Below, in pieces: positions 9,885 to 53,651 of a stretch of DNA of 64,000 nucleotides. The stretch is taken from the NCBI RefSeq assembly GCF_003416765.1, contig NZ_QSNG01000001.1, forward strand, positions 2,010,742 to 2,074,741, in the 5' to 3' direction. The DNA comes from Paratractidigestivibacter faecalis (GTDB lineage: Bacteria > Actinomycetota > Coriobacteriia > Coriobacteriales > Atopobiaceae). The translations under genes and the position numbers were made by a program. The notes below the pieces were generated by a model. That model was not told where the DNA came from. It ran no database searches and was given only the letters and a program-made list of their open reading frames with translations. The number at the start of each line of letters is the position of its first letter. Within the stretch, counting starts at the first letter, position 1.

Positions 9885-10178
9885 GTGACTACGATTCAGG
9901 ATTGGCCGCACGGCGGCCCGGAGTCACGCTGGATGGGGGAGAGCTTGAACGACGCTCAGGTCATGCATGCCATGGCGCTTGACGGCATGTACCACGTCCA
10001 GCGCGTGCTGGCCCGGGGTGCAGGAGAGCTCACCGAGCTGGTGACCATCGAGGACGCCGGGCCCTTCGTGCGCAAGAAGATCCCGGGCGAGATGGCCCGT
10101 CGCGGCGTCTGGTCCGCGCTGGGCCAGTGCTGCTCTCCGCTGGTGGCTCCAGTTTGCAAAATACGCCTTTCTCTCTAA
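9885..10178 (+). pseudogene. 3'-truncated serine/threonine protein kinase fragment
   Basis: About 90 residues resembling the N-lobe of a Hanks-type kinase: YHVQRVLARGAGELTELV looks like a degenerate glycine loop, and PFVRKKIP supplies a possible ATP-binding Lys. The frame runs into the repeat array of the following ATPase cassette and stops, and no kinase C-lobe is found downstream. Start could be GTG 9885 or ATG 9933. With the HTH fragment before it, this looks like a two-gene locus destroyed by insertion of the ATPase cassette. Kinase identity is inferred, not certain. Confidence 0.45.
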
Positions 10179-10263
10179 ATTTCGGTTTGCAAAACACAAG
10201 AATCAGGGCAAAATTAGGTTTGCAAAATACAGTTTCAAAGCCGTTTTTTGGTTTGCAAAATAC
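10153..10263 (+). repeat. Four TTTGCAAAAYAC boxes at exact 33-bp period
   Basis: TTTGCAAAATAC occurs at 10153, 10219 and 10252, and TTTGCAAAACAC at 10186. The start-to-start distance is exactly 33 bp in all three intervals; the 21-bp spacers are unrelated. The core TTTGCAAA is self-complementary. The last box ends 17 bp before the ATG of the ATPase and overlaps the place where its promoter must be. This is consistent with an operator array read from one face of the helix. Confidence 0.9.
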
Positions 10264-10280
10264 AGTTTTGCGAGGTAGAT

Positions 10281-43478: not shown

Positions 43479-43516
43479 GAGGCCCCGCGGGTACGCCGCC
43501 CGTGGGGCTCTTTGTT
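43479..43516 (+). terminator. Terminator after ftsH
   Basis: The GAGGCCCCGCGGG and CCCGTGGGGCTC arms pair with one bulge and one wobble, followed by TTTGTT. Confidence 0.7.
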
Positions 43517-43531: not shown

Positions 43532-43616
43532 ATTTGGGTCTTGGTTTCTACAACATTCGGATTTTGGTATCTGAGCGATTCGGATTCTGGTATATATTTG
43601 ATTCGGGTTTTGGTAT
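43532..43616 (+). repeat. Four 16-bp boxes at exact 23-bp period
   Basis: ATTCGGATTTTGGTAT at 43555, ATTCGGATTCTGGTAT at 43578, ATTCGGGTTTTGGTAT at 43601, and a degenerate copy ATTTGGGTCTTGGTTT at 43532 (13 of 16). Start-to-start distance is 23 bp in all three intervals. The last box includes the -10-like TATAAC at 43614. This is the same architecture as the array before the other DUF4143 ATPase, with an unrelated sequence. Confidence 0.9.
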
Positions 43617-43652
43617 AACCAAGGGTGAAGAACCGTGCGATGGGGGGTAAGC

Positions 43653-44966
43653 GTGTCGAACGGGAAGACCATTGGGGTGCCCAGACCGGCTGCATATACG
43701 CCAAGAATCGTCGACAGACAAATAGAGAAGTACCTCGGTCTGTTTGGTGCCGTTGAGGTGTCGGGCGCCAAGTGGTGTGGCAAGACCTGGTCTTCCCTTG
43801 CGCACGCGGCGTCCGTGACCTACGTCGATAGGGGCGCTAACCTGCAGATTATTCAGGCGGACCCTGCCTATGCCCTTGCGGGCGACCGTCCACATGTCAT
43901 CGACGAGTGGCAGCGCGTCCCGGCCATTTGGGACACGGTGAGACACGCCTCAGACGAGCTGGGGGAAGCGAAAGGGGCTTGGATACTGACGGGCTCCTCG
44001 ACTCCAAATAAAGACAAGACGGCTCACAGCGGCGCCGGGCGCATTGGACGAGTCAGGATGCATCCCATGACGCTTGCCGAGACTGGGGAGTCGAGCGGCC
44101 GAGTCAGTCTTGCGGGCCTCTTCCGCGGCGAGTTTGAGCCATGCCAGTGCGATAACGGCATTGAGTCCTTGGCAAGGCTTGCTGTCCGCGGCGGTTGGCC
44201 TGCAGAGCGCACAGCTCAGCCAGGGGATGCGCAGATTGTCCTCAGGGACTACATGGAGTCCATCTTTATCCAGAGCATTCCACGCCTGGGCGGAAACGAG
44301 AGCACGGCGCGGCGGCTTGCGCTGTCGCTAGCCCGTAATCTCGGCCAGTCCACCAAGGCAGATACGCTCATCCGGGATACCTACGCGTTGGGTTCAGCCG
44401 AAACGACTTCGGAGAGCCAGCGCAAGGAGGTGGCCGGTCTCCTGGATATATTCACGCGCCTCTTCCTTGTTGATGAGGTGCCGGGCTGGGTCCCGGCATC
44501 TCGTTCGCCCAAGCGCATGCGGGTCAAGCCAAAGCGATACTTTGCTGATCCGTCCCTTCCGGTTGCACTTCTCGGTTTGTCCTGTGAGGCACTTCTGCAG
44601 GATTGGCAGAGCTTCGGCCTTGTATTTGAGAACCTTGTTATGCGTGACCTCGACGTCTATTCCCGTGCACTGGACTTTGGCATGTCCTCTCCGCTGCGCT
44701 ACTACCGTGATGATTCCGACCTTGAAGCCGACGCAATCATTGAGAGGCCCGATGGAAACTGGGCTGCCATCGAGATCAAGGTGAGCCTCGATAAGGTCGA
44801 CGAGGCCGCGTCGCAGCTTTTGAGGATTCGGAAAAAGGTCTGTGGAAGCGCCGTCGCGCGAGTGAGGGAACCGGCGTTCCTGGCTGTGGTAACTGGCATG
44901 GGCGAGGTGGCATATCGCCGCTCCGACGGCGTATATGTGATTCCGATTCGCGCGTTGGGGGCATAG
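43653..44966 (+). CDS. AAA+ ATPase with DUF4143 domain (second copy, divergent)
   Basis: About 437 residues. Walker A-like VSGAKWCGKTWSSL, Walker B HVIDEWQRV, sensor WILTGSS, HTH-like middle, and C-terminal nuclease-like motif DLEADAIIERPDGNWAAIEIKVS. Its similarity to the ATPase at 10281 is only at family level. The segment 43640-44960 is less GC-rich and uses A/T-ending codons more than ftsH or the aminotransferase, suggesting acquisition. GTG 43653 is chosen on a GGGGGG run 4-5 bases before it; GTG 43635 is an equally possible start. Function unknown. Confidence 0.82.
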   Translation: MSNGKTIGVPRPAAYTPRIVDRQIEKYLGLFGAVEVSGAKWCGKTWSSLAHAASVTYVDRGANLQIIQADPAYALAGDRPHVIDEWQRVPAIWDTVRHASDELGEAKGAWILTGSSTPNKDKTAHSGAGRIGRVRMHPMTLAETGESSGRVSLAGLFRGEFEPCQCDNGIESLARLAVRGGWPAERTAQPGDAQIVLRDYMESIFIQSIPRLGGNESTARRLALSLARNLGQSTKADTLIRDTYALGSAETTSESQRKEVAGLLDIFTRLFLVDEVPGWVPASRSPKRMRVKPKRYFADPSLPVALLGLSCEALLQDWQSFGLVFENLVMRDLDVYSRALDFGMSSPLRYYRDDSDLEADAIIERPDGNWAAIEIKVSLDKVDEAASQLLRIRKKVCGSAVARVREPAFLAVVTGMGEVAYRRSDGVYVIPIRALGA

Positions 44967-53219: not shown

Positions 53220-53651
53220 ATGAAGCAAGGTATCCACCCTAACTACGTGGAGTGCACCGTTCGCTGCACCTGCGGCAACACCTGGGTTACCCGCTCCACC
53301 AAGAGCGAGATGACCCTAGACCTGTGCGACAAGTGCCACCCGTTCTACACCGGCCAGCAGAAGCTCGTCGACACCGGCGGCCGCGTCCAGCGCTTTGCCG
53401 ACAAGTTCGGTGGCGCCGCTGCCGCCCAGCTCAAGAAGGCCGAGGAGGCCAAGGCCGCCAAGGCCGCCAAGGCTGCTGAGGCCGAGGCCGCCCGCAAGGC
53501 CGCCGCTGAGGCCAAGGCTGCCGCCAAGGCCAAGCGTGCCGCCGAGTACGCCGCCAAGGCTGAGGCCGAGGCTGCCAAGGCTGCCGCCGCTGCCGAGGCT
53601 GAGGCTCCCGCCGAGGAGGCCCCTGCCGCCGAGGAGAACGCCGCCGAGTAG
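53220..53651 (+). CDS. rpmE: 50S ribosomal protein bL31 with long Ala/Lys/Glu extension
   Basis: 143 residues. Residues 1-66 are a complete zinc-type bL31 ([22 protein letters not shown], then [24 protein letters not shown]) with Cys at CxC and CxxC positions. The next 75 residues contain almost only A, K, E and R and would form a long, charged helix ending in an acidic [14 protein letters not shown]. Normal bL31 is about 70-85 residues. AGAGGAG precedes ATG 53220. There is no stop or frameshift between the parts. Confidence 0.95.

Follow-up and report, generated by a model that had tools for sequence, protein, structure and literature searches.

A subfamily-specific period and co-varying boxes mark the repeat array before a DUF4143 ATPase gene as its probable private operator

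What reads an array of direct repeats that stands immediately before a single ATPase gene, and what is it for? In the 64,000-nt stretch of DNA analysed here (the window), four 16-bp boxes start at 43532 (ATTTGGGTCTTGGTTT), 43555 (ATTCGGATTTTGGTAT), 43578 (ATTCGGATTCTGGTAT), and 43601 (ATTCGGGTTTTGGTAT), the first of which, farthest from the gene, is a degenerate copy. These positions and their exact spacing (23, 23, and 23 bp) had been proposed in a sequence-only reading of the window and were borne out by the sequence, by a TRF row covering 43555–43617, and by shuffling of the upstream region, in which 0 of 40 shuffles reached the score of the array. The three 7-bp spacers are all unlike each other. 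Three exact matches to the box exist in the whole host genome, all inside the array (43555–43616). The gene, described earlier as low in GC, is lower than the window, but only moderately so (60% vs 66%); the array itself stands at 38%. CRISPR arrays have long identical repeats, unique spacers of about 30 nt, and cas genes, a description not met by 16-bp boxes with 7-bp spacers and no cas gene in the unit.

The array is located between the ftsH terminator and the solitary ATPase gene (Table 1). Its last box merges into TATAAC (43614–43619), as the sequence-only reading had noted for a -10-like box, and a TG precedes this hexamer, making it an extended -10 element. A search for a sigma-70 -35/-10 pair at the window array found none. 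The promoter overlap recurs in homologues: across 208 arrays, -10-like hexamers occur at the array 3′ end in 104 loci vs 62.6 expected by composition, with no excess just upstream of the array (30 vs 39.7 expected). The median distance from the array end to the chosen start codon is 43 bases. For the window gene the likelier start is GTG 43653, after GGGGGG; residue numbers below count from the alternative start, GTG 43635.

Table 1. Coordinates of the two arrays of the window, their ATPase genes, and associated elements.
Feature	Coordinates	Strand	Basis
Intrinsic terminator of ftsH, located before the array start	43481..43509	+	
Operator-like array: four 16-bp boxes, period 23	43532..43616	+	sequence, repeat finding
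Extended -10 element TGGTATAAC, made by the end of the last box	43611..43619	+	sequence
AAA_14/DUF4143 ATPase, putative winged helix and PD-(D/E)XK-like C-terminus, PADLOC PDC-S01 submodel PDLC04790	43653..44966	+	
Codons of the predicted winged-helix recognition helix, residues 260-275	44412..44459	+	AF2 model; co-varies with box
Codons of hairpin 346-376, nuclease-like domain; co-varies with box (D360/S361)	44670..44762	+	
Other array: four boxes GTTTGCAAAAYAC, period 33, before sister-subfamily ATPase	10152..10264	+	
AAA_14/DUF4143 ATPase, 33-bp subfamily, PADLOC PDC-S01 submodel PDLC04792	10284..11582	+	

The protein next to the array is indeed a DUF4143 ATPase, with AAA_14 and DUF4143 domains, and residues 20–441 meet the PDC-S01 profile (PDLC04790, E 6.1e-52). 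In its AF2 model (mean pLDDT 95, pTM 0.93) an AAA+ core is followed by three helices in winged-helix order and then by a PD-(D/E)XK-like sheet; the winged-helix assignment is an inference from this order of secondary structure. Membership of the AAA+ class is met by the Walker A and B, sensor, and arginine residues G44, G49, K50, D90, E91, T119, S121, and R136, conserved at 97–100% in 259 proteins. That of the PD-(D/E)XK class is met by E364, D366, E380, and K382, present in 98–100% of the 259 homologues, and strands lie in the model at places matching the core sheet; nuclease activity is untested. Searching by sequence found no related solved structure. The nearest solved folds in Foldseek include those of DNA-bound Orc1/Cdc6 (2qby, 2v1u), the archaeal ATPases 2qen and 2fna, and RuvB, with low TM-scores of 0.4–0.5 at best.

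To ask how general the array is, we gathered homologues from the order, the phylum, viral contigs, and all GTDB species; they range over Coriobacteria, Bacteroidetes, Spirochaetes, cyanobacteria, and archaea. Upstream sequence of every gene was scanned for direct repeats with periods of 14–45, and an array was called significant when at most 1 of 200 dinucleotide shuffles reached it. The window subfamily supplied 173 non-redundant homologues whose upstream region was complete; 142 of them carry a significant array there, 130 of these at a period of exactly 23, and 31 lack one. Segments of the same genes, used as a coding control, yielded 2 significant arrays in 179, and the region upstream of the neighbouring aminotransferase in relatives yielded 4 in 29, none of the 4 at 23. 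The period-23 rule holds in Bifidobacterium, Clostridia, Bacteroidetes, Akkermansia, spirochaetes, Synechococcus, and several archaea. A rare departure is seen in a same-order relative (L423), which has the window box core letter for letter, yet at period 22. Among IMG/VR contigs, too, some encode such ATPases behind 23-bp arrays of their own, including loci L120–L126 (about eight boxes in L122), which may be phage or misassigned host DNA; the two-box window pattern has no exact match in IMG/VR.

Sister subfamilies keep other periods. The window's other array (GTTTGCAAAA at 10152, 10185, 10218, and 10251; spacing 33) belongs to a subfamily in which 43 of 60 loci are significant, 37 of them at 32–33; in a third subfamily the counts are 14 of 24 and 13. 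A fourth (L007-type, PDLC04787) is weak: 6 of 26 are significant, all at 38–41 (about 40), and the boxes look palindromic. Weak repeats about 40 bp apart with such boxes are found in L007-type loci L308, L324, L325, and L330, and the boxes of the other subfamilies are unlike these. All four subfamilies match submodels of PDC-S01 (PDLC04790, PDLC04792, 04786, and 04787), and one matching PDLC04789 was left unjudged as too rare in the order. Elsewhere in the window, 53448–53646 is dense in short tandem repeats and appears to be an Ala/Lys/Glu-rich coding stretch.

Computationally, then, the period is set by the ATPase subfamily while the box letters diverge. The sequence-only reading had seen a shared design in the two arrays of the window, four boxes at integer-turn spacing. 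The second array is real; neither the number nor the whole turns are invariant. Arrays contain 2 to 7 boxes, and 23 bp is 2.19 turns, which places successive boxes about 69–70 degrees apart (10.5 bp/turn); what stays constant is the period of each subfamily, 23 or 32–33. On the same helical repeat the rotation per step, about 69 degrees for 23 bp and about 51 degrees for 33 bp, is small and positive in both cases, and the two periods differ by about one DNA turn. That this shared positive rotation reflects the pitch of an oligomer is our inference.

Eight DUF4143 matches are present in the 2.1-Mb host genome, which its named relatives place in the Coriobacteriales. One paralogue (L002) has a different 23-bp array, TGGCGTAAAA. 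In a third same-subfamily paralogue (L005, G000:C1:1876208-1877461) the ExK motif is replaced by INVEIG (E380N, K382E) and a significant 23-bp array is lacking, the nuclease motif and the array apparently having decayed jointly. Two further matches (L006, L008) are broken or fused remnants. In another genome, two tandem ATPase genes (L040 and L051, G006:C4:49837-52556) each have their own, different 23-bp array.

Array and gene behave as a unit. A same-genus genome has 33 bp between ftsH and the aminotransferase, with neither array nor ATPase, and about 20 relatives agree; at another site, the same-genus genome carries a 75% identical ATPase together with this box. The empty site and the occurrence of the same pair elsewhere indicate that array and gene move or are lost together. 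They also raise the possibility that the arrays are the trace of a transposon-like cassette end, with regulation secondary, which we regard as improbable: boxes are absent from the far end of the gene and from the rest of the window, the empty sites examined contain none, and the unit has no transposase. Across 396 genomes the exact box 15-mer matches 12 times, and 10 of the matches immediately precede such ATPases. Lone exact copies without an adjoining DUF4143 ATPase occur in L482 and L485, near 1501 in each, and the one in L485 precedes, in the same strand orientation, a gene for a different AAA ATPase.

The overlap of the arrays with promoters could also reflect binding of a general host regulator, and proof of such binding would have refuted the proposal that array and ATPase form a system. 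The data contradict it, and we give it almost no weight. Outside its array the window box is absent from the host genome, and it recurs in front of related ATPases from other families, with examples in Bifidobacterium, Collinsella-type, and Eggerthellaceae-type genomes. Furthermore, boxes differ within 51 paralogue pairs, each pair from one genome (32 genomes in all), with a mean similarity of 0.34. These paralogue boxes are no more different than protein distance predicts (0.343 vs 0.362 expected), and so we see no avoidance within genomes and no evidence of selected orthogonality.

If the ATPase reads its own array, box and protein should change together. In arrays with at least three copies, identity is 90% over a 14-column block and 61% over the remainder, which argues that boxes are held by selection while spacers drift; diverged spacers next to undiverged boxes rule out a recent simple tandem duplication. 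Between loci, boxes diverge to unrelated sequences. Box similarity nevertheless follows protein identity (Mantel rho 0.235, permutation SD 0.019, n=208 arrays) and climbs steeply beyond about 50% identity, as expected if each ATPase clade has its own box; label permutations model shared ancestry incompletely. This link and the residue-level covariation described below support the earlier suggestion that array and ATPase co-evolve as a system.

A covariation analysis had been proposed as a way to map the DNA-reading residues. A first scan with 149 arrays was too weak and was redone with 208. A partial regression of box similarity against the identities of separate domains gave an effect of 0.15–0.20 (p 0.005) for the 13-residue recognition helix (258–270) and of 0.12–0.17 (p 0.005) for hairpin 346–376, and only 0.05–0.07 (p about 0.1) for the much larger AAA core in pairs of >50% identity, so that the signal maps to the putative reading elements and not to the core. 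The helix and hairpin effects are independent and present at every identity threshold; the recognition-helix window ranks 3rd, 20th, and 2nd of about 400 at three thresholds. D360 and K264 are among the top columns of a column scan. Of 19 proteins with a [TA]GG/TG-type 3′ half box, 18 have Lys or Arg at 264, vs 4 of the 23 without one; within the window's clade, boxes end in TTTTGG or TTTAGG in 18 of 22 proteins with K/R264 vs 1 of 20 lacking it. The rule extends to Bifidobacterium and Eggerthellaceae-type proteins that are 52–55% identical to the window ATPase. Q264 pairs with TCTAG boxes, D360 with TTCGG-type and A/S360 with CTCGA-type 5′ half boxes. The window ATPase has QRK in this helix and a box ending in TTTTGG; the relative L384 has Q264 and a box ending in CTAGG. 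Parsimony places about five changes at residue 264 and eight in the box, with one shared branch; with so few changes, ancestry accounts for part of the 264 and 360 associations. Specification of the repeats by the predicted recognition helix is thus supported by covariation, with few independent changes and no binding data behind it.

Related loci can carry the box in reversed orientation (about 11% of similar pairs at 55–70% identity; for example, L013), as expected for a site in double-stranded DNA and not for RNA. This bears on the idea that the array is transcribed and acts as an RNA antitoxin for the nuclease, as in type III toxin-antitoxin systems (ToxIN), which tandem repeats directly before a single nuclease-like gene would otherwise suggest. 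In addition to the reverse-complemented boxes in relatives, the predicted RNA fold is unremarkable (z -0.76), an Rfam search gave no match, the spacers vary while the boxes do not (0.61 vs 0.90 identity), and the promoter signal is at the end of the array, not before it. The description of a type III system is therefore not met, and we consider an RNA role highly implausible.

A period fixed by subfamily, together with box letters that change with the reading helix, makes it very probable that the ATPase binds and controls its own gene. We favour, as a reasonably likely whole, an account in which the array is the private operator of the adjoining ATPase. Each box would be read by the winged-helix recognition helix, probably aided by the hairpin of the PD-(D/E)XK-like domain. 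An oligomer would assemble along the array, winged helices on consecutive boxes and AAA+ cores in contact at a fixed pitch, and its geometry would set the period, 23 bp here and 32–33 bp in the sister subfamilies. Covering the promoter at the gene-proximal array end, the complex may repress its own gene cooperatively and so keep an ATP-driven nuclease low until repression is lifted, the trigger probably being phage or plasmid DNA. Direct binding of the ATPase to its own array is inferred with high confidence in the absence of binding data; autorepression, inferred without expression data, is probable and the likeliest use of the array. The conserved ATPase and nuclease residues imply that the protein does more than repress. 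A defence role is likewise inferred. In a Thermus thermophilus transcriptome, the AAA_14/DUF4143 gene TT_P0211 appears in the table of genes responding to plasmid DNA (PMC4406477), a single case, consistent with inducible defence.

The same pattern would result if the ATPase were an activator, or if the array were a loading site without regulatory function. The latter would make the array an iteron- or origin-box-like site at which the ATPase loads or is licensed, as initiator or self-marker, rather than an operator. Iteron-like direct repeats adjoining the binder's own gene, a strict period, the Orc1/Cdc6 and RuvB fold neighbours, and conserved ATPase and nuclease residues are all compatible with it. 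We nonetheless judge it unlikely: the array sits at the gene's 5′ end, overlapping -10-like sequences, downstream arrays are rare (within 240 bp, 7 of 76 significant, 4 of these at 22–23, vs 65 of 77 upstream), and the window locus is chromosomal. A more speculative extension, to which we assign a low probability, is that the array serves as the self-address of an immune ATPase-nuclease. The parked oligomer would be the sensing form, competing or disturbing DNA would trigger derepression and nuclease attack, and box and helix would diversify fast, keeping systems separate.

PDC-S01, an ATPase fused to a PD-(D/E)XK domain, is described as very common in prokaryotes and as their fourth most common defence system or candidate; the defence function of most such candidates awaits validation, and the parts of the description available to us mention no repeat array (PMC12988326). 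Our literature searches, whose scope excluded subscription papers and preprints, found no description of such arrays, and a prior one cannot be excluded. Since the window ATPase and all four subfamilies match PDC-S01 submodels, a private array offers a handle on a system of unknown mechanism: for each member it supplies a presumptive binding site, for which there are no binding data, a promoter, and named candidate reading residues. Winged-helix specificity could also be decoded from the hundreds of protein-DNA pairs that have diversified in nature, and the fixed pitches of 23 and 33 bp constrain the oligomer ahead of any structure. As a gene with its own operator the system is ordinary in kind; a pitch locked to the subfamily with free letters, across one of the commonest defence candidates, is unusual.

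Several known systems share parts of this design. AbiE and type III toxin-antitoxin loci are defence loci with repeats before the gene; the AbiE repeats are inverted and bound by the antitoxin, and those of type III systems are RNA, whereas the window system consists of one gene and DNA boxes of reversible orientation. Orc1/Cdc6 proteins and origin recognition boxes likewise combine an AAA+ core and a winged helix that reads repeated boxes near its own gene, and these proteins are structural neighbours of the window ATPase, at low TM-scores; the window ATPase differs in its extra PD-(D/E)XK domain, in an array placed at the gene promoter, and in having many paralogues per genome. In plasmid Rep/iteron autoregulation, tandem direct repeats about two turns apart precede the gene of their own winged-helix binder, and the window array resembles these in both spacing and position upstream of its presumed binder's gene. 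It does not meet the description of a plasmid system, lying on a 2.09-Mb contig between ftsH and the aminotransferase with no replicon, and its presumed binder is an AAA+ nuclease; here, moreover, the boxes diversify greatly while the period remains fixed per subfamily.
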